Origin: Daucus carota subsp. sativus
Lineage: Eukaryota > Streptophyta > Magnoliopsida > Apiales > Apiaceae
Assembly: GCF_001625215.2 (NCBI RefSeq)
Contig: NC_030385.2
Location: 1,853,135 to 1,917,134, forward strand
Reading direction: 5' to 3'
DNA length: 64,000 nucleotides
Shown: in pieces, positions 1-47,992 of the stretch
Numbering within the stretch: position 1 is the stretch's first letter
Layout: each line of letters starts with the position of its first letter
The notes under the pieces: generated by a model
What the model saw: only the letters and a program-made list of their open reading frames with translations
The model's database searches: none
Told to the model about the DNA's origin: nothing
Program-made: the position numbers and the translations under genes

Positions 1-2522
1 GCGGTACCTCATCGACTGACTGTAAATGTCTAGCTCTCTTCTGCACGGATTCATAGTCTGCAGTATGATAAACCATTTCGGGATTAGTACTACTAGGATG
101 GTTAACATAGATGCCATCACTATTATAAAGAATATAAAAAAGCTATCATGAAGTATTAAAAGAGAGAAAATGCTATCATAAATTATGGCAAAAATGGATT
201 ACGCAATCACTCATAAGTAAACTACAACAAACAATAGTATAATAAATACAAAAGCAATATAGATGGTTTAAGCCGTGTCTATGTGAGTAAAAATAATACT
301 AAAAAAAAGCAAGTACCATAATGTGATACTGGAACCAGTGCGAGCCTCTTTCGAAGAGGCAAATGTACCTTAATTGGTCTGAACTGTTGGTACAGATAAT
401 TCAGCCTCTTGTTTGTTTCTAATCATCGTAATACAGACTATAGCAGGCACTTCTAGGATTCCCGATATAAGAACGCTAAATCGAATATATCAATCAAATG
501 ATACCTTCCCTGGAACTCTAAAGAATGTTACTATCAAAGTGACATCCTATTTCTTCAATACATTTATGACATTCTTCCTCTCCACATTCCTATCCTTGCA
601 CATTATGTGTAGCGTGTTCCAGTTGAAAATATTAGAATGCTGATAACCGGCTGTTTAAGATGAATAACTTCAAATCTTGTAAACCACAGAACTTTAAGTA
701 CACAAACTACTGAACCTGGCAGCAGGGGAGTAATCATGATTTAAAAACATTTAAGCATGATCGGAACTTTGTTCGGGCATGGCCAGATAATTTGTAGCCA
801 TGAATTTTAATATATTTAAGTTGTTCCAAATGTTGGCTTTAGGTATCTGGAAGATAGACGCATAGTTATACGACTAGGACTGCCACAATAGGTAATAAGC
901 TAAATGCATGATACATATACACAATACAACAGCACAAAGTGATTCATATATAGCGGTAGATGTAGTCTATCATCCACTAAAACAGTTCTCGACATAATTA
1001 CGAGACAGTAATAACTAAGACTAACAATTTATGAAGTATCTGATAAAACTGAGAATGTTAAAAGGACTATTAGTTACACAAACTGTGTTGAATCATCAAG
1101 ATTACCAGTATTATCTCGAGCACTCAAGCCTTTGGGACCTCCAAGAGTCTGAAAAGATAAAAAGAAGAGGAAATAATCATAAACTATAGAATCATATTTC
1201 AAATTCCCAATCGAAGAATACTAACATGAAACATCACATGTGTTCCTGCACCAGGAGCAACATGAGGGGGGAAATCACAACTTACAAGTTGTGTGGTCAC
1301 TCCAGAGGGAGCCCGAGCACCGTATATTTGCCCACAAGAATGATCTACATATAGTGTTTGAACACCAGGGTGAGGCTTTGGATTCTTACAGTGATGATGT
1401 TGCCATTTCAAGCTGCAAATGGAAAAAACAAAGATGATGAGAGTAATTATTAGATTTCCTCAATAGTCAGAGAAAACAATAGGTACCTCTGGTTAATCAA
1501 TCTCTGCAGCCTAGAGTTTTCAATGTTGGGAAGCTGAAGTTTATCTCGAAAAAGTGGATTTTCCTCGATAGACATTTTAAGCATCTCAAGCACATTTGAC
1601 CTGGCTTCTTTGGTATCCCCGTACATAGAAAATTCTGCATTCGCCCTAGAAATTGGAAAACATCCCATAACAGTCGAACAAATGAAAAATAGGAGGCCAA
1701 ATTATCTAAGGGTCGTTTCAATCATATAGTACCATGAGGTTGCAATTTCGGAATATACAATTTTCATAAGATTAATGTGTGCAAGTCCTGGCATTATCCA
1801 ACAATCGTAACTAGTATAGGTTCATTTTTAAGCTACACAACAGCATGGAACAGGCAAAGAAAGTAAACTAAATAAGCGGATCAACACATACAATAATATA
1901 AGATGTGAAGAAAACACCTGAAGTTTGGCGATCTCAGAAGCAGAGTCATTTTGGTGAGATCATTATCATGAGTAACGGAAAAAACTGTCAACTCTTTTCT
2001 CAGCATCTCTACCGCCTTCCCATAATCAGACCTGAACCAGATGTAGAAACGAAAAGTAACATCCATAAGTATCTGAAAATTACAACAAAAATACAGGCAT
2101 AATTCAAATCAATTAGTATAACTTACTTATCCAATGCTTCGAAATACTTTTGTTTTTTAATCTCAAAGAACATTTCCAAGGAGTGACAATTGTCATCATA
2201 ACTGGTAAAGACGGACAGATATTTCTCAACTTCATCCCATTCTCCCTTTGTAACAACATCTTCAAAATACTTCATATTGAAATAACAACCCGAGTCTGTT
2301 TCCAACCTTCAGAACCATGGAAACATCAACACCAACACCAACGCAGATCAATCAAGAAACATAATTGGCACATAAACAAAAAGCTAAGTATGTGAGCAGG
2401 CTGAAGAAACGATACCGAACTCAAATATACATAAACCCTTACCAACGAATAGCGTTTTTGAATTCTTTCTCTTCTAAGAATTGGCGAATCAGAAACACAA
2501 CTTCTCCAGTAAGATGAGACAT
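1..2522 (-). CDS. TOPLESS-related (TPL/TPR) corepressor, divergent, N-terminal part; gene runs off the left edge
   Basis: Seven exons read on the minus strand: 2443-2522, 2127-2306, 1918-2031, 1487-1645, 1226-1412, 1084-1148 and 1-119 (partial). The first five keep frame exactly. The exon 6 donor (GT at 1083-1082) is inferred because it restores phase into the last exon. The protein begins MSHLTGEVVFLIRQFLEEKE, a LisH motif, followed by the CTLH region (FNMKYFED, WDEVEKYL, FFEIKKQKY, YGDTKEAR, NPLFRDKLQLP) and the CKNP..TLYVDHSCG stretch typical of TOPLESS. The last visible exon has the HPSSTNP..KRAR linker that precedes the WD40 repeats, which would lie beyond position 1. TPL proteins are nuclear corepressors recruited by EAR-motif repressors (auxin, jasmonate, defence). 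Positions that contact EAR peptides in TPL are changed here (see findings), so a different partner range is possible. Family assignment is sure; the exon 6/7 join is less so. Confidence 0.85.
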
Positions 2523-2608: not shown

Positions 2609-2976
2609 CACACACACACACACACACACACACAACTAAATCAGGAAATCATATAAAAAACTAAGCACACAAGAAAATCAAGAAATGCAATTGCATACTC
2701 TCTCTCTCCCCCTCCCTCCCTCCCTCCCTCTCCCTCCCTCTGTCACAACTCCCTCCCTCCCTCCTTCCCTTCCTCTCTCTCTCTCTCTCTAACACACACA
2801 CACACACACACGAGCAAATGCAGAAAAAACACAAGAATCAGGTATATGCAAATCCATACTCATACCCAGAAGACAAAAATTATACACACCTTTTGCAATT
2901 GCATACTCTCTCTCTCTCTCCCTCCCTCCCTCCCTCCCCCCTCTCTCTCCCCCTATCTCCCTCCGTTCCTCCCTCC

Positions 2977-3021
<45 letters not shown>

Positions 3022-3023
3022 AA
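2609..3023. repeat. CA and CT/CCT microsatellites with a ~210-bp tandem duplication
   Basis: The (CA)n runs lie at 2609-2634, 2791-2811 and 2998-3022. The CT/CCT-rich tracts lie at 2698-2790 and 2906-2996. The segment starting GCAATTGCATACTC at 2687 recurs at 2895, and GCAAATGCAGAAAAAACAC at 2814 recurs at 3024. A unit of about 208-210 bp carrying both microsatellites has therefore been duplicated in tandem. It lies just upstream of the TOPLESS-like start codon, probably in its promoter or 5' leader. Confidence 0.85.
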
Positions 3024-12510: not shown

Positions 12511-14514
12511 AACCTAACAAGGGATTAGAGTTAATTTCGTGGTCAGATTTCTGCTGACCATGCGTAATTATTAGCTTACATATATGCTGCAGGATCAATG
12601 TACAATCAGAGGAAATGTATGTGTTTTACTTTTACAGCAGCAACAACTAAACTTCCAGGTAGAGTTTATGCGGTTTTTGGTTATTCTTTGAAGTCCACCA
12701 CAGTCACAGATGTGTGGTTGTATAACACAAAGCAGGCAATTCATTTTCAGATAGGATGTTGTAAACCTTCAAACTTCAAAGCTGGGTGAAACCTTGTGAG
12801 TTGTGATAGAGCTCTTAAATGAAATATAGATTCTCTCAATCCTTTTTGTGACGTGTGAGGTTTACAAATAGGGAAGGTAAGGCATCTCTGACATGGCTTT
12901 TGGAGAAGTGATGGATTTTAATACTAAATCTTATCAAAAAATATTATTTTATTATATTTTAATTCAAAATATTAAAAAATATTAAAAAAGAAAATCTGAT
13001 TTCTATCTTTTCTGTCATATCTTCTAAATTGTATGGAATATTGTAGATGTGTTTTCGCCTTAAACAAATATACTATTATATTCATTCATAAACATAATAT
13101 ACTATTATATTCATTCATAAACATAATATACTATTATATTCATTTATCATATTTATTATATTCAGATAAATATAATCTGACAAAAATCATAGATTGTTCA
13201 TCCTCACTCTATTTACTCTGCCCAAAAATATTCGAAAGTAATATAATTCTGTTCTTGATTAAATTAAACTTTTGAAGTTCTTCGAGTTAATAGTTCATAC
13301 AAACAAACAAAAGGATTTTGGTTTAGCCAGAAGATATATTATTATTTCCTAGATTAAACTGAATGAAAAGTCCTGCATCAATTTTTTTTTTGTTTTTCCA
13401 GGACAATAATATTAACCAAGTATTAATATCAAACAAAGACGGTGGAAAATAAAATCAAAAAAAATATTTTTGACCTAGACAAACGTTAGCTTTTAATGTT
13501 TAAATAATGAATATTCTATTTTTATGCAGTAGTGCATATAATTATATATAATGAAATTAGGGTTTTTAGTCCCCTCAGTTCACAAAGTCACAAGTCAAGT
13601 TAGGGTTTATATACTTACTAATAATATTCAAACCCTAAACCCCAATCTTCTTAGCTGCTGCTGCCTCCTCTTCTCTTCACAGTAAGAATTTCTTCATGGC
13701 TTGCACTTCTTAATTTTATATGTATTGCTTATTATTTCTTGATTTCTTGTATTTGTAAATGCTCTGTTGTCATTTCATTTCATTAAATTTTTTGGTGATA
13801 TTTTGGACTAATGTGGTTAGGATTGACAAAGGGTCATGGTTAATTTGGATCATTAGTCCATCTGCCCCAAATTAGTAGTCATTTTGACTTTTTACGGAGT
13901 CAAGGTGCATAAAAACTTGTAAAAACTTATAGGGACTAGTTATTTGGGATGGAGGGAGTGTGTATTAATTGTTAATTGCAGTGTGATATGTTGCAGAGAG
14001 AGTTGGTTGTTTAACATGGTAACGAAGCTCGGAAATTTTCCGAAATAGATAGTGAAAGATTTGGATAACTAGCAGTTGGTAACAGAAAAACAGGATTTTG
14101 AGTGAGGGAGTGATGAGTATTTGGAATAAATGCGAGCCCTCCTACTGATACTTTCAGTATTGTTGGGAGTTAGTATACTAGGGTGACAATGATTCTGAAA
14201 GATATCTGTTATCTTTCAAATTTCAATTAGACTAAAACTTATTGTATATAATTTGTTTATGTTCATGCCATTCACCTCTATATGTTTTTTTTTTACCAAT
14301 TGATACGACTATGCAAAACCTGATTATTGAGTCATCCAACACTAATAAACAGATAACAATCCCTAGAGAAAGAAGTCTACGGTTTGGAAATATCCTTTGG
14401 TTGAGAAATTGGTAGATTGTAGAGGGGCTTGTTGCGGTAACTGGTGTAGAAAGTCATTTGTACTTCAGCTGCTCGGAGTTATCAGAAAATAGTTATCCAA
14501 AAAGACACATTATT
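12511..14514. other. CUE gene 3' region and 5' leader of the hAT-derived gene
   Basis: The first ~330 bp probably hold the CUE gene 3' UTR. 12900-13550 is AT-rich with a short tandem repeat (listed separately). At 13555-13690, AAACCCTAAACCCCAATCTTC and a pyrimidine-rich stretch look like a plant transcription start and leader. A leader intron from about 13683 to the acceptor TACTTCAG near 14468 is plausible. GGATGGAGGGAGTG near 13949 is one end of a decayed Stowaway-type MITE. Confidence 0.45.
13068..13145. repeat. Tandem repeat, ~31-bp unit, about 2.5 copies
   Basis: The unit ATACTATTATATTCATTCAT plus AAACATAAT is repeated twice, with a third partial copy ending in TTTATCAT. Pure AT-rich sequence with no coding meaning. 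Confidence 0.8.
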
Positions 14515-16278
14515 ATGGGTGTCTTTTCAGTTGGCCGTCATGGTAACGAGGAAATAAATCAGATTACCCCATATACGCCTTTGAAGACAGATAGTAGTGC
14601 AGTTGGTACCGTACCTCCCAGAAAACGGTACAGAAGCATCCCAGGGGCATCAATTCCTTTTGACCAGGACACTTCCAGCCACTCAATAGCCAAGATGATC
14701 ATCTTGCACGACTATCCTCTTAATATCACAGAACATCAGGGATTTCTTAATTTTGTACGGTTTCTTCATCCACAGGTCCATACAGATGTCAAAAGTGTCC
14801 AAGAGGAATGTATCAACATTTACCGTAGGGAGAAGCAGGATCTTGTGAATTATCTTGGTCAAATCTCCGGACATGTTAATCTAACTCTGGATTTGTGGGG
14901 ATCAGATCAAGGCCTGTGCTATTTACTATTAACAGGCTATTTTGTTGACAGTGCTTGGAAACTGCAAAAGCGGATCCTCAATGTTGTTATGCTACCATTC
15001 CCTGATACAGAATTTGCTTTGAGTCATGCAGTTGATAATTGCTTAGCCAACTGGGGATTGGAACAGAAGATTTTTACTTTAACTCTTGATGAATCTTGTG
15101 CAAATGAGGCTGCACCAAGATATCTTAGAGGTCTACTCTCAGTTATGAACCCACAAGTTCTTTATGGTCAGTTAGTACTTGGGAACTGTTACGCTCGATT
15201 ATTGTGCAGTCTTGTGAAGAATGCTTTAGTATCAATGGGAGATATCATCAAGAAAGTTCGTGACAGTGTGAAATATGTAAAAGCATATAAAGGCAACGAA
15301 GATTATTTTAATGAACTGAAGCAGAAGCTTCAAAAACCTAGCTCAAATAGCTTGGCTATTGATGATCAAACAAAGTGGAATACTACTTACCACATGCTAG
15401 TGGCTGCCTCTGAACTAAAAGAAGTATTTTCTTGTTTGGATACATCTGATCCAAATTATAGCATTTTTCTATCTGAAGAAGAGTGGCGAAGGGTGGAAAT
15501 TCTCTGTGTATACTTAAAGCTCTTCTTTGATGCAGCAAACTTATTAGTTGCTCCAACACACCAAACCACCAATTTATTCTACCATGAAGTGTCAAACATC
15601 CAAATTCAATTGGCTCATGCAGCCATGAGCCAGGATACTTTTACTAGAAATCTGACTAAACCATTGCAGGAAAAGTTTAATGAATATTGGAATTCTTGCA
15701 GCCTAATTCTTGCTGTTGCTGTGATTCTGGATCCAAGATTTAAGATGAAACTTGTTGAGTTCAGCTTTTCTAAGATATATGGCATGGATGCTGAAACCTG
15801 GATTAAGGTTGTTGATGAGGGTGTTCATGAACTCTTTGTTGAATATATTGTGTTATCGCTGCCTTCACCAACTTTTCTTGTAGAAGACAACGGAGGAGTG
15901 AAAAAAGAGACGAGTCCCGAAGATGAGAATTCTGCTGGTGGTGATGATTTTTTGGACTTTGATGTCTACATATCTGAGATAGCAGGAAGCCAACATATGA
16001 AATCAGAGTTAGACCGGTATTTGGAAGAACCTCTTTTGCCTAGAACACAAAAATTTGATGTTTTAAGTTGGTGGAAACTAGAAGCACAGAAGTATCCAAC
16101 TCTCTCTAGAATGGCATGCGATATATTGTGCATCCCAGTTTCGACAGTAGCTCCAGAGTCTGTGTTCGACACTGTACCTAAGAAAATGGATAGCTACCGA
16201 AGCTCACTAAAACCCTCAACTGTCGAGGCACTTATTTGTGCCAAAGATTGGCTTCAGTATGGATCCTCATCAGTTTAG
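14515..16278 (+). CDS. Domesticated hAT (hobo/Ac/Tam3) transposase-like protein
   Basis: An intronless frame of 587 aa from the ATG at 14515; the frame is open further upstream but has no earlier ATG. The order is that of hAT transposases: the MIILHDYPLNITEHQGFLNF block (about residues 60-80), TLDLWGSDQ and LTLDESCANE around the first two catalytic aspartates, KWNTTYHML, VILDPRFKM, and a hAT dimerisation domain near the C terminus (LSWWKLEAQKYPTLSRMACD, STVAPESVFDT, RSSLKPSTVEALICAKDWL). The BED zinc finger normally at the N terminus is absent. The usual CxxH motif of the insertion domain reads CYAR. The usual ST-GGR motif after the conserved Glu reads DTVPKK. No inverted repeats were seen around the gene. 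An intact frame with altered transposition motifs fits a domesticated gene. Its function is unknown. Confidence 0.88.
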   Translation: MGVFSVGRHGNEEINQITPYTPLKTDSSAVGTVPPRKRYRSIPGASIPFDQDTSSHSIAKMIILHDYPLNITEHQGFLNFVRFLHPQVHTDVKSVQEECINIYRREKQDLVNYLGQISGHVNLTLDLWGSDQGLCYLLLTGYFVDSAWKLQKRILNVVMLPFPDTEFALSHAVDNCLANWGLEQKIFTLTLDESCANEAAPRYLRGLLSVMNPQVLYGQLVLGNCYARLLCSLVKNALVSMGDIIKKVRDSVKYVKAYKGNEDYFNELKQKLQKPSSNSLAIDDQTKWNTTYHMLVAASELKEVFSCLDTSDPNYSIFLSEEEWRRVEILCVYLKLFFDAANLLVAPTHQTTNLFYHEVSNIQIQLAHAAMSQDTFTRNLTKPLQEKFNEYWNSCSLILAVAVILDPRFKMKLVEFSFSKIYGMDAETWIKVVDEGVHELFVEYIVLSLPSPTFLVEDNGGVKKETSPEDENSAGGDDFLDFDVYISEIAGSQHMKSELDRYLEEPLLPRTQKFDVLSWWKLEAQKYPTLSRMACDILCIPVSTVAPESVFDTVPKKMDSYRSSLKPSTVEALICAKDWLQYGSSSV

Positions 16279-36418: not shown

Positions 36419-36820
36419 TCAAGCATCTGGAGATGTAGGAAACAAGTCCAGGAGCTTGGGTTCTGGGGAGGTAGGAAACAAATCCAAAAGCTGCGGCTCA
36501 ATATTGTTTGAATTAGTACCCAATGGATTTGGATACAGATAAAAGCCTTTGTTGGCAATTGCATTGTCTTCTAGCATAGAAGGTGACACTTCTGTCATCA
36601 TATTGCCAGGGACAAATGCATTCTGCCCATGAGGGGTTGCATTTTGATTGAGCTGACTGGTTTGCCTTTGGACTATATCACGAAAATTAGGGGCGGGTCC
36701 GGTCAGCCTTTGGACTATATCACGAAAATTTTCCGGCTCAGTTCGAACAAAAGTTGTGTTTTGATTGGTGTTTCTGTTCTTGTTTGTTTTGGGGGTGTTG
36801 GAAGAACAAGCATCCGACAT
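36419..36820 (-). CDS. Short VQ-motif protein with internal duplications
   Basis: An intronless 133-aa frame starting at the ATG at 36820. The VQ motif FRDIVQRLTG (about residues 32-41) matches FxxxVQxLTG, the WRKY-binding signature. A second, degenerate copy, FRDIVQRQTS, follows about 13 residues later. The C terminus also repeats LLDLFPTSP twice in tandem. Both repeats are visible as duplicated DNA (TTTGGACTATATCACGAAAA at about 36668 and 36713). The middle part (LNQNATPHGQNAF, ANKGFYLYP) matches the larger VQ gene at 42828-43283, so the two are tandem paralogs on the same strand. VQ proteins are small nuclear cofactors of WRKY factors or MAP kinases. An intact frame and a TATA box argue for a real gene; decay in progress is the alternative. 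Confidence 0.85.
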   Translation of the reverse strand: MSDACSSNTPKTNKNRNTNQNTTFVRTEPENFRDIVQRLTGPAPNFRDIVQRQTSQLNQNATPHGQNAFVPGNMMTEVSPSMLEDNAIANKGFYLYPNPLGTNSNNIEPQLLDLFPTSPEPKLLDLFPTSPDA

Positions 36821-36893
36821 TTTGGAAATGATAAAACCAGGGTGAGGAGAGATTACTTCTGTATAAGTGCATAGAGAGGTACCGTGGTTATCC

Positions 36894-36901
36894 TTTATAT
36901 A
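36894..36901 (-). promoter_or_regulatory. TATA box of the short VQ gene
   Basis: On the minus strand GCTATATAAAGG lies about 75 bp upstream of the ATG. The same TTTGCTATATAAA core lies at a similar distance from the second VQ gene, so the core promoter was duplicated with the gene. Confidence 0.6.
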
Positions 36902-38336
36902 GCAAAGAGAAATGTTAGGGTTTGCAAAATTTACGCGGGAGTGTCGGGCGGTAAAAAAATATTAACGTGTTGACTACGTGTTTACAATTTTTTAAAATTA
37001 TTTAGTTGGGATTCTATAAAATTAATGACAATTTAAGTATTTAGTTGGATTGTATTTAAGTTTTGGTTGAGATATTGTGAGATTATACAAATTAAATGTA
37101 TTCAGTTGAGATTATAATAAATTTTATAATAATATATATAATCTATTAGATTGTAATTAATTCTAGAGATAAGAAAATCAAGTATAATTGTACTTGTTTG
37201 GATTTAGGCACATTATTTCCAGTATCTCATTTAGTGAGATGCCAAAAAATATAAATACGATAATCAATGTCTCTCAACTTATATTAAATCACTGATATTG
37301 GATGATTTAATTTAATAAATTATCATCTAAATATAATATAAAATCTGATGGATACCACCAAAATTTAAAATTAAATTCAAAACATATTAAATATTTCAAG
37401 ATTATTGATTACATGAATAAAAAATTATCAATGAAAAACAATTTAGTTAATTATCCAATAAAATTGTCAATATCTTATAAAAGGTTGTAGATATTTGTTA
37501 TATACTTATTTATTATTTTTTATAATTGTAAAATAGTGTATACAAAATTTAGATTAATATGTTGTATAATCATTTAAATAAATTCGAGACGCGATAAATA
37601 TAAACGAGAAAACCTATAATATATGTGTGGTTATATAAAAATAATATTATATCATATCATTATAAATATCTTTCTCATCACATACATGAAAAAATCAACT
37701 GAGAGAGAAAATAAAAAACATGTAACGACTTTGTTTAATATATATTTTAAGTTATTTAATATTATATAATATGATATTATGTTCGACATATCTTAAAATA
37801 TGTTAAACATTTATCAGAAAGTTGACACCTTGATCATATACATATTAAATTTGTAATAACATAATTAGCACATGACATAATTAAAAGAAGATTTCACTTT
37901 TCACAATTACATTTTCCTCTAATTTTTTAATTTATTTTTGATATACATCTCATTTTAGACCATGGCATATAATTATTTAAATATATTTTTATAAAAACTC
38001 ATGCATAAACAATTATTATTTTATTCAAAATTTATAAAAGAAACATTTTTAGAGTTATGCAAATTATTTGTACAAAAGAGTATATATATGATAATTTTAA
38101 TATTAAAATTAAAAAAATCATATAAATATATTAAATAAAACAATATACAAGATACTAAATTAAAAAAAATATTAATATCAATTTCTTATATAATAAGGTT
38201 AATATCACGTACATATATAATTTAGATCGTCTTTGGAGATATCACATAAAGTCACTAGATTTAGATAATTTTTATTTTCATTTTAAGAAGAGTTTCTATT
38301 TTACTAAAAAAAAAATAGTTTCTATTTGAAAAAATC

Positions 38337-42827: not shown

Positions 42828-43283
42828 TTAAGAATCTGAAGATGTTGGAAACAAGTTGAGCAGCTTGGGCTCAGACTTTCTTGAAGTACTGACTGGACCG
42901 GGTTGCAAGTAAAAGCCTTTGTTAGCAATAGCATGCTCTTCTGGCACAGAGGGTGAAAACATGTCCAGTGTCGAGACGGGGGAGAAATCCGTCACTTTCA
43001 TGTCAGGGAGAAACGCATACTGCCCATGCGAGGTTGTGTTTTGATTGAGCTGAATTGCCAGGTTCCGGGTGGCTTGCCTTCTCTCTTGCAGCATGAAAGA
43101 TGGTCTTGTCTGACCAACTTCCACAGTGTGGTACAGGCCATTTGATGGACGGGCAGAAAGGGTGACGGAGATCCTTTGCACTGCTGGATCAGTGCTGGAT
43201 CCGGTCAGCTTCTGGACTACATCCCTAAAGTTTTCGGGTTCAGCCTTGACAAAGGTGATGTTTTCTAGCTCTGGATCGGTCAT
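42828..43283 (-). CDS. VQ-motif-containing protein (VQ11/VQ4-like)
   Basis: An intronless 151-aa protein if it starts at the ATG at 43283 (MTDPELENITFVKAEPENF). The frame stays open upstream to 43385, but that extension overlaps the TATA region and is unlikely. The VQ motif FRDVVQKLTG (residues about 19-28) is complete. It is followed by an S/T-rich middle, LQERRQATRNLAIQLNQNT, and a C-terminal EPKLLNLFPTSSDS. VQ proteins bind WRKY transcription factors or are MAP-kinase substrates and tune defence and growth. The shorter paralog 6 kb away (36419-36820) shares the N-terminal block, LNQN.T.HGQ.AF, ANKGFYL and the LFPTS tail. The next gene on this strand is glycerol kinase. Confidence 0.92.
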   Translation of the reverse strand: MTDPELENITFVKAEPENFRDVVQKLTGSSTDPAVQRISVTLSARPSNGLYHTVEVGQTRPSFMLQERRQATRNLAIQLNQNTTSHGQYAFLPDMKVTDFSPVSTLDMFSPSVPEEHAIANKGFYLQPGPVSTSRKSEPKLLNLFPTSSDS

Positions 43284-43386
43284 TGTGAGAGTGATTGTGA
43301 GAATGATAGAGACAGAGAGTGAGAGTTGAAAGTACTTTGTTGTAGCTCTTTTTGTTTGCTGCATGTAGAGGACATTGGTTGTCATG

Positions 43387-43394
43387 GTTTATAT
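43387..43394 (-). promoter_or_regulatory. TATA box of the second VQ gene
   Basis: On the minus strand TTTGCTATATAAACC lies about 105 bp upstream of the chosen ATG. It supports that start over the longer open frame. Confidence 0.6.
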
Positions 43395-45364: not shown

Positions 45365-47992
45365 TTACAATGCTAGATCAGCCAAGTTAAAGGTCGTTGA
45401 AACAGCTTTAATCCACGAATCCACTCTCTTCTTCCTCTGTTCATCTGGTAACTTTGGTTGGAACGTAGTGGCTATCTTCATCCTTTCACTATTAGAGAAG
45501 ATATCATCCTCTGTCCAAACTCCAACAGCTAATCCAGCAGCACATGCAGCTCCAAGTGCTGTGGTCTCAATGTCGGCTGGTCTTACTACCGGAGTCCCCA
45601 GCACATCTGCCTGAAATTCATAGTGATCGTATGCACAAAAACAAGGCATTGCTTTAGTGATCCTAGAAAAAAGAATGAGAGACAAAGAAAGTACCAACTA
45701 ATATATTGGAGAGCCTAAACGTGAATACTCAAGATAACTTGTGCTTAATTCTACTTCAAATCAACTAAAATACACTGATGCATAATGCTAAACAAACAAG
45801 AATCAGAGAATGAAAGGTTTACTTGCACAATAATCAAATGATATAGTATTGTAGAGAAAAAAATGGAATAGCAACAGTCACTCATTGAGAAAGCAGACCT
45901 GGATTTGCATCAGAAGGTTGTTGATAGTAGCACCACCATCAACCCTTAACACGAATTTTGAGGCACTGTCCTCTTTACCAACATCCTTATTCATTGATTC
46001 TAATACATCTCTTGCCTGGAAACATATACTTTCAAGCACAGCCCGACAGATGTGAGACTTGGTTGTGTACCTGGTAATTCCAATACAAACACCACGAGCA
46101 TCTTCACGCCACCAAGGAGCAAATAGTCCATTAAATGCTGGAACAAAATAGACTCCACCAGTGGTGTCAACTTCTGCTGCAAGTTTCTCGACGTCCCTTG
46201 CACTACTAATTATACCAAGATTATCTCTAAGCCACTGGACCGCAGCACCAGCAATAGCAATGGAGCCCTCTAGTGCATAGGATGTGGGAGCTTGAGGGCC
46301 GAGTTTAAAAGCTACTGTGCTTAATAATCCATGACTTGACTTAACAGTCTCATCACCGGTGTTAAGTAAGATGAATGCTCCAGTACCATAAGTGCACTTG
46401 GCTTCCCACTTCTTACAAGCTTGCCCCAGCATTGCAGCGTGTTGATCGCCTAGACATCCTGCAATAGGAATACCTGTAGTAGGCCATCCGATTGCTATGT
46501 TTCCCACAATCTCAGAGTTGGAAATTATTTTAGGCAAAATTCCAGCAGGAATTTTTAACTCTTCCAAAATTTGTTCATCCCAGCTGAGTGTTTTGAGGTT
46601 CATGAGCATTGTCCGGGATGCATTTGAGACATCAGTGACATGCAATCCGCCTTTGATCCCTCCGGTTAGATTCCAAATCAACCAGGTGTCAATTGTTCCA
46701 AACATAGCATCACCAGATTTCACAGCTTTGCCTACTTCCTCCACATTTTCCATTAACCACAAAATCTTCATGGCACTAAAGTAAGTGCTAATCGGCAAGC
46801 CACATGTCTCTAGAAAATGGTTTCTTCCTCCTTTCAGTTCACCCTCAAGTCTCCTATAATTTGTCAAAAAGCAATTACATCTAAGTATGACAAATGCCCT
46901 AGTCTTCAAGTCATCAATGTTCTAAATAACTCTACAAAATTCAAACTCATAAATTTCAAACAATTTAACAGAAGGATTGCATTTCGAACTTCAAAAATTG
47001 TGAACTCAAATAATTTTAGTCAACACAAGCAAAGATAAAAGACTACAGCCAAATTGAGACTCTCTTCATAAAACTAAAGTCATGTACTCTGTTCAAAAAA
47101 TTTCAAAACAACGATCAAGATCATAAACGAATAGTAAACATACTCCCTCTGTTCCGACCATTTCTTTACACTTCCTTTTTGGATGTCCCATCCAATTCTT
47201 TACATTTCATCAAAACTTACTTCTCTCCACGTACTATACCTACTTTAGCATTAAATATCAATCAATCCCACCAGACTATCCTCACTTTTCTTACCTTTAC
47301 GCTCTTACTTTACTTATTTTCTCAACCTCCGTGCCTAACCCAAGTGTAAACATTTGGGTGGGACGGAGGGAGTACAAGATAACAGGCGGTAAGAAAAAAG
47401 GAAAAAAGAACACGAACCTGCAAATGGCACTAGTACGAATATCCATCCAAACAATGGCATTGTGAAGAGGGCAACCAGAAGACTTGCTCCATATGACTGC
47501 AGTCTCTCTTTGATTAGTGAGACCAATGGCCTTCAACTCACTATCAACATTATGTCCATCAGCTGTGGCCTTGTCTATAGCTTTCGCCATGCATATTCTT
47601 GCACTTTCCAATATCTCCATCGGATCATGCTCCACCCATCTAAACACAATCACACACATAAATATTCATAAACAACATAAAAAACACGACCACACAGTGA
47701 CAGAATCAAGATTTCGAAACTAGACTGAGGTATCTAATACTCCAATAATTTTTATTGCTTAAAGAAAATTTATACTATTATTTTCACGACAAAGTCATTT
47801 ATTTTTGCAGCTCAGTCGGGACTGTGTCCGGACACAAGTGTATGAGTTGAGTGAGTACCCTGCTCTAGGACAGAACTGATTGAATTCAACCTGGTGGGAA
47901 GCAATGGGCTTAGTAGTGGAATCATAGATGATGAATCTTGTGCTTGTAGTTCCCTGATCCAGTGAACCAATGAAAGCAGTTTTATTTGACAT
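45365..47992 (-). CDS. GLI1: Glycerol kinase (GLI1/NHO1-type)
   Basis: Four exons on the minus strand: 47859-47992, 47418-47639, 45899-46853 and 45365-45610. They give 518 aa, close to the roughly 520 aa of plant glycerol kinase. The N-terminal phosphate loop [16 protein letters not shown], the glycerol-binding QRET (in [12 protein letters not shown]) and [10 protein letters not shown] are present. So are the [13 protein letters not shown] motif, [13 protein letters not shown] and the C-terminal ATP-site motif [20 protein letters not shown]. The enzyme phosphorylates glycerol to sn-glycerol-3-phosphate in the cytosol, using ATP. In Arabidopsis, loss of this gene alters glycerol tolerance and nonhost resistance. 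All motif residues expected for activity are present, and no frameshift was seen. Intron 2 carries a Stowaway MITE (47143-47372). Confidence 0.97.
47143..47372. mobile_element. Stowaway-type MITE in glycerol kinase intron 2
   Basis: TIRs CTCCCTCTGTTCCGACC and GGTGGGACGGAGGGAG, flanked by TA on both sides. Length 230 bp. Stowaway elements are non-autonomous Tc1/mariner derivatives. Confidence 0.9.

Follow-up and report, generated by a model that had tools for sequence, protein, structure and literature searches.

An intact short TOPLESS paralogue of carrot without the first WD40 propeller and with an altered EAR groove

The analysed window, a stretch of 64,000 nucleotides of the carrot genome (C5:1853135-1917134), cuts with its left edge through a TOPLESS (TPL)-type gene on the minus strand, hereafter the C5 gene. 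The gene has a full reading frame, lacks the first of the two WD40 propellers of its canonical relatives, has substitutions at five of six residues of the EAR-binding groove, falls within the TPL family in a tree, and shows an omega below neutrality. We have good, though not complete, confidence in reading it as an intact and selectively maintained "mini-TOPLESS", derived from a copy of the type of the canonical paralogue L011 and probably acting as a modulator outside EAR recruitment.

A complete frame without the first propeller

When completed from the assembly, the C5 gene comprises 15 exons and 680 codons, all 14 introns are of the GT..AG type, and neither a stop nor a frameshift interrupts the frame (Table 1). 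The earlier note, made from the window alone, had judged frame and splice sites to be intact, and this extends to the whole gene. Donors (GT), acceptors (AG) and phases are consistent across the seven in-window exons; the join of exons 6 and 7, which the note proposed checking, is in frame in the genomic sequence (GTAACT donor, ATAG acceptor); and a pseudogene signature past the window edge, which it named as fatal to its claim, was looked for and not found, the frame being open to the stop codon. The end of exon 7 was derived from genome coordinates, and the terminal TAA was read by hand. Exon 7 has a second in-frame acceptor 27 nt downstream, use of which would give 671 residues instead of 680.

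Table 1. Features of the C5 gene, of its surroundings and of the non-canonical paralogues. Positions without a contig prefix are those of the window.
Feature	Position	Strand	Content
C5 gene exon 1	2443..2522	-	residues 1-27; start codon, LisH helix region
C5 gene exon 2	2127..2306	-	residues 28-87, CTLH; R67C, K71E, F74 kept
C5 gene exon 3	1918..2031	-	residues 88-125, CRA; K102T, L111D, Q117L, E122P
C5 gene exon 4	1487..1645	-	residues 126-178; helix 8, first part of zinc-finger region; L130F, E146M, K149M, L150S; N176 kept
C5 gene exon 5	1226..1412	-	remainder of zinc finger and first part of linker; zf_topless 79-81 bits (cut-off 27)
C5 gene exon 6	1078..1148	-	linker, shortened: 71 nt vs 124 nt in L011
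C5 gene exon 7	8..119	-	linker, KRAR cluster; ends ...SVDE, phase 0, GTACCG donor
C5 gene exons 8-15	C5:1852732-1850580		outside the window; correspond to canonical exons 18-25, code for the second WD40 propeller and end in TAA
Repeat blocks	2609-3022		two similar CA and CTCC/CT microsatellite blocks just upstream of the C5 gene start codon
hAT-type transposase	14416-16275		RNase-H and dimerisation domains, one long open frame
VQ-motif protein genes	36422-36961 and 42831-43388		two genes, mutually related
FGGY carbohydrate-kinase gene	45881-46921		FGGY domains, probably glycerol kinase
L018-L021	C9:5.93-6.08 Mb		four neighbouring TPL genes of the short type
L022	C7:33.54 Mb		short TPL gene
L023-L031	C9:29.2-30.65 Mb and 7.5 Mb		nine fragment-only loci

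The first four exons measure 80, 180, 114 and 159 nt and the counterpart of canonical exon 18 measures 144 nt, the same lengths as in L011, with which exon 2 is identical at 45 of 60 positions. Descent from the TPL family is thus indicated both by a common exon structure and by a tree position inside the family. The duplicated repeat that lies upstream of the start codon is likely to belong to the promoter or 5' UTR of the gene.

Directly after exon 7 comes an exon that corresponds to canonical exon 18, both in phase 0, and canonical exons 8-17 are absent. In L011 this block amounts, by exon lengths, to ten exons, 1248 nt and 416 codons, with phase 0 at both ends. A tblastn search for propeller 1 (E 1e-3) over 19.8 kb at the C5 locus, containing no N bases, gave no match, whereas the same search gave 5-9 matches in each of eight canonical loci; the intron after exon 7 has 409 bases. 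Propeller 2 is present. The interpretation in the earlier note survives in part: the gene is an intact and real paralogue, but its first propeller, which lies beyond the DNA available to that note, is gone.

In spliced alignment, a full-length guide yielded two frameshifts and two stops, and L011 with cheaper gaps yielded one of each within a forced exon, while a guide free of propeller 1 yielded none of either. We regard these defects as artefacts, because the missing propeller was forced onto intron sequence.

Paralogues, ancestry and constraint

Paralogues were sought in the same assembly (441 Mb, 11 contigs) with the PF21889 profile, and loci were chosen from the 55 exon matches listed. 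Spliced alignment produced models of eight canonical genes (L010-L017), six short genes and nine fragment-only loci. Six of the canonical models run to about 1130 residues and the other two hold propeller 1; those of L010 and L013, with 982 and 953 residues, end with their 10 kb stretch.

Besides the C5 gene, five short copies are without propeller 1. Four of them, L018-L021, are neighbours on C9 and intact; by eye, they pass from exon 7 to the exon-18 counterpart just as the C5 gene does. They give one or two frameshifts and one or two stops with a full-length guide, and none with the propeller-free one. Of the six groove residues they keep 5, 5, 5 and 4, with L150I in all four and F74Y in L021. 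The fifth copy, L022, is a complete gene on C7, about 190 kb from canonical L012; it is more divergent than the C5 gene, keeps two of six groove residues, and runs from exon 5 directly to the exon-18 counterpart. At the fragment loci L023-L031, matches to the C9-type copy are limited to roughly exons 3-5, from residue 87 to residue 202 or 237, and some loci hold a second partial copy. These look like amplified gene fragments, with the reservation that exons upstream of the examined stretches would escape notice.

The tree was built from 14 genome loci and one further row; the nine fragment loci were excluded from it and from the rates, and the entries for L019-L021 in this input carry eight false C-terminal residues. 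The C5 gene groups with L011 and L022 at 97/98, and with L011 at 100/99 once the long-branched L022 is omitted; L022 in turn groups with L011 at 89/95 (not starred) once the C5 gene is omitted. The C5 gene and L022 may be sisters: the support is 49/30, placement of the C5 gene with L011 is not rejected (p 0.27), and long branches meet at that point. In the same tree, canonical L015 is sister to the C9 group at 100/100, which indicates for that group an origin separate from that of the C5 gene. A single clade of all six short copies, as one common origin would predict, is rejected (p-AU 7e-5). Since the short copies do not form one clade, there were at least two losses of propeller 1.

Neighbouring genes offer a further view of ancestry. 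The probable glycerol-kinase gene of the window has two matches in the genome; the other, 78% identical, lies on C7 between L022 and L012, and has one stop within the matched stretch. A VQ protein of the window has 16 genome matches, of which the best outside C5 (52%) is on C6 between L014 and L011. The blocks on C5, C6 and C7 thus look like old duplicates. An LRR gene, tried as a synteny marker, was uninformative with its 223 matches. Glycerol-kinase and VQ genes presumably also neighbour TPL/TPR1 in Arabidopsis; a literature search for that neighbourhood found no mention of the neighbours' locus names.

Compared pairwise with L011 over 671 codons, the C5 gene has an omega of 0.29 at dS 0.89. 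The dN/dS check that the earlier note proposed, in this pairwise form, rejects neutrality: omega 1 is excluded (p 1e-27), as is 0.5 (p 1e-6), roughly the value expected if one branch were neutral and its equally old partner frozen. Over the 534 codons of the head and propeller 2, omega is 0.255. Two canonical pairs at similar dS give 0.047 and 0.063, the value for the C5 gene being about 5 to 6 times as high. Three-gene fits, whose third branches are saturated or near-saturated and which do not always exclude omega 1, give the C5 branch an omega of 0.37 for N plus C (p 0.071 against omega 1), 0.31 for N (p 0.29), 0.31 for C (p 0.031, with a degenerate fit of the L011 branch), and 0.13 for N with L013 (p 0.011). 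In neutral runs from the L011 mini CDS, comprising substitutions only, none of 300 sequences was free of stops at each of d 0.2, 0.3, 0.45 and 0.57 and one of 300 was at d 0.1, with about 21 stops at d 0.45. Among the four C9 copies, omega ranges from 0.32 to 0.40 in six pairs, with p against omega 1 below 0.02 in five and 0.062 in one. Taken together, the rates point to a constraint on the C5 gene that is relaxed, not neutral.

An outright pseudogene is rejected on the full frame, the pairwise rates and the neutral runs, although some three-gene fits are compatible with omega 1. A subtler possibility is a dying paralogue, relaxed after duplication, deprived of its propeller by accident and doing little or nothing despite its open frame, its groove changes being drift. 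This we consider unlikely, while counting it, together with dominant-negative action (below), as a main rival of the non-EAR modulator that we favour. The raised omega, the alteration of other mapped surfaces, the failure of the three-gene N plus C fit to reject omega 1, and the similar syndrome reported for tomato SlTPL6, with its very low expression (PMC3935560), would all accord with decay. On the other hand, all 15 exons are intact at dS 0.89, neutral runs accumulate stops at d 0.45, a pairwise omega of 0.5 is rejected, and both the CTLH and the zinc-finger domain exceed their cut-offs by a wide margin.

The altered head

The N terminus aligns without gaps with the rice TPR2 head (PDB 4zhe) over 205 residues, 117 of them identical (E 1e-72), and is identical to AtTPL at 109 of 183. 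We take 4zhe to be rice TPR2; the PDB lists it as ASPR2 / Protein TPR1. The gapless TPL alignment in the earlier note covered about 150 positions and so proves longer, and the six residues that it singled out, five replaced and F74 kept, read as it stated (Table 1). These positions, R67, K71, F74, L111, L130 and L150, we take to be the contacts of the EAR (LxLxL) groove; a literature search on groove residues returned nothing concerning TOPLESS. Alignment with the TPL/TPR proteins of the species, another check proposed in the note, upholds its view of a paralogue with an altered groove: the eight canonical paralogues modelled all keep six of six, the C5 gene one. PDB entries 5ja5 and 5jgc are variants of the rice head in which alanine occupies positions 111 and 130, where the C5 gene has D and F; we presume the alanine variants to be groove mutants meant to break peptide binding.

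Set against divergence of the head as a whole, the loss in the groove is more than chance. The C5 gene keeps 102 of 168 positions common to AtTPL and OsTPR2, against one of six in the groove (P 0.035), and 97 of 144 positions invariant in the eight canonical paralogues and OsTPR2, again against one of six (P 0.014). Support for groove depletion is only moderate, because the six positions were picked after the sequence had been seen. Depletion is within chance in L022 (P 0.27; 78 of 144 invariant head positions kept) and in the four C9 copies (P 0.43-0.81; 110-115 of 144).

Three further surfaces were compared using residue lists for the LisH dimer, the CRA interface and the MED21 face (PMC8203292), and at each the C5 gene keeps one residue of four, losses which are each within chance alone (P 0.17, 0.17 and 0.34 among sets). 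In LisH, S5T, L8V and E19K are changed and F15 is kept. At the CRA interface only K102T is new, because Q117L and E122P are already found in L011, the nearest canonical gene. The MED21-binding face consists of V145, E146, K148 and K149, of which position 145 is variable in canonical genes as well. Part of the divergence is therefore older or ordinary. T116 and L179 are kept, as is N176, the tpl-1 site, and I195 is V.

Among domain profiles, the CTLH-containing TPR1-like domain (PF21889) scores 152 and 149.3 bits and the TOPLESS zinc finger (PF21359) 81 and 79.1, each against a cut-off of 27, while LisH_TPL (PF17814) reaches 27.7 and 25.6 bits (E 2e-6 and 1e-5), under its cut-off of 30.7; OsTPR2 scores 52.4 on the same profile. 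The LisH, CTLH and dimer-interface blocks had been called recognisable: this is right for CTLH, and the zinc finger may be added, but LisH falls under the Pfam cut-off and three of four dimer residues are changed. Similarly, the groove is altered, as claimed, but change is not confined there, given the loss of propeller 1 and the differences at three of four residues on the other surfaces. Divergence of the groove only was accordingly not upheld, although elsewhere no single surface departs from chance and some of the changes were inherited. Divergence thus extends past the groove, with both the CTLH-containing and the zinc-finger domain still scoring well clear of their cut-offs.

Function, relatives and implications

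We propose that a redundant duplicate of a canonical gene of the L011 type, probably the remnant of an ancient block duplication, was shortened by the in-frame loss of exons 8-17 in one piece, so that the first propeller would have gone and the LisH-CTLH-CRA-zinc-finger head and second propeller been kept. The head would then, presumably in that order, have come under weaker constraint, with loss of five of six LxLxL groove residues and three of four mapped MED21-face residues. Ordinary LxLxL (EAR) recruitment would be lost or weak and MED21 contact weak; action would proceed via the second propeller, the zinc finger and the conserved core of CTLH, perhaps with weak pairing through LisH, and the protein would serve not as a normal corepressor but either as a specialised adaptor outside EAR recruitment or as a modulator of TPL proteins of full length. 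With one propeller and most pocket residues lost, the protein probably has a different job from its parent.

The earlier note had itself suggested a decoy, a dominant-negative partner or new ligands. A decoy for EAR-bearing ligands is unlikely in the case of the C5 copy, judging from its sequence, because the groove itself is what changed; the short C9 copies would fit that role better. Dominant-negative action, in which the protein would pair with full-length TPL via LisH/CRA and poison tetramers for want of groove, MED21 face and propeller 1, strikes us as rather unlikely. Retention of F15, T116 and N176 and the well-scoring CTLH-containing domain would suit it, but S5T, L8V and E19K fall at LisH sites that were mutated to make TPL monomers, K102T lies at the CRA interface, and multimer-breaking TPL mutants still repressed in yeast (PMC8203292). 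The LisH and CRA substitutions thus suggest that pairing may be impaired. Distinctly improbable, again as a prediction from residues, is a groove rebuilt in acidic/polar form (E71, D111, S150) that would bind a different motif: the changes at 111 and 67 are radical (BLOSUM62 -4 and -3) while F74 is kept, but K71E and L130F score 1 and 0, and the raised rate is general and not groove-only. That the propeller is absent only through misassembly or a faulty gene model is hardly credible, for although there is a single assembly and full-guide alignments gave frameshifts and stops, no N occurs at the locus, the phases fit exactly once a propeller gap is allowed, and five further loci lack that propeller as well. 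Our odds on these readings are not mutually exclusive, because the dominant-negative and new-ligand proposals are sharper versions of the mini-TOPLESS reading.

With canonical TPL/TPR genes (AtTPL, rice TPR2, L010-L017), of which L011 is nearest, the C5 gene shares a gapless head to residue 205, equal exons 1-4, and a second propeller encoded by counterparts of exons 18-25. It is unlike them in lacking the first propeller, in five of six groove residues, in its shortened exon 6, and in length, with 680 residues versus about 1130. At2g25420 of Arabidopsis, which we take to have about 740 residues, is like the C5 gene a divergent TPL relative, the two being compared by description alone. Termed "AtTPR-like", it has been reported as highly diverging (PMC3935560). 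Tomato SlTPL6, also known here by description, belongs to a fast-evolving asterid clade, is cytoplasmic and weakly expressed, and has a dS/dN of 3.6 versus 6.2-7.6 for the other five tomato members; its Aux/IAA binding is absent according to the abstract of that report and appears as limited growth in its results (PMC3935560). SlTPL6 and the C5 gene are alike as fast-evolving paralogues under weakened purifying selection, but the former is described as having 1222 residues and two WD40 regions (PMC3935560), whereas the latter is short and has one propeller. The primer used to clone SlTPL6 begins with ATGTCTCTTAGTAAGGACCTTAT (MSLSKDL), a start that the C9 copies (MASLNKDL) resemble more closely than the C5 gene does (MSHLTGEV).

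Pocket variation between paralogues has a parallel in Arabidopsis, where the EAR pocket (helix 8) is reported to vary naturally among TPL/TPR1, TPR2/TPR3 and TPR4, altering client recruitment (preprint PMC13251949). Those variants are described as full-length functional corepressors with swaps in one helix, while the C5 gene combines changes in several helices with propeller loss. PuTPR1-1/1-3 of Populus ussuriensis, with reported lengths of 963-1285 residues, are described as having no LisH (PMC12566939), a domain loss within TPL paralogues that concerns LisH there and a propeller here. A soybean survey states that truncated sequences were discarded by hand (PMC13275459), and short TPL copies may be missed in surveys for this reason. 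Divergent paralogues such as SlTPL6 and At2g25420 are already published; loss of propeller 1 is not described in the portions of the TPL literature examined, where the lack of a report of a paralogue without only the first propeller is no proof of absence.

More tentatively, and in our view less likely than not, removal of propeller 1 may be a recurrent, selected route, by which at least two TPL lineages would have lost the segment from intron 7 to intron 17 and then been retained by purifying selection, forming a class of mini-TOPLESS regulators. The four C9 copies, with their largely kept groove, could then titrate or buffer EAR clients and EAR-bearing pathogen effectors, and the C5 gene and L022 would have rebuilt the groove for other partners. 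Hormone and developmental repression share TPL as a hub, and pathogen effectors target it. SIX8 of Fusarium is reported to bind Arabidopsis TPR1 at its first WD40 region (PMC10754003), and other effectors to use the EAR pocket (PMC13251949). An intact C5 paralogue with no propeller 1 and a changed groove, alongside copies that lack propeller 1 but largely keep the groove, amounts to a natural separation of TPL functions, and the short copies form a natural mutant set for testing the role of each module.
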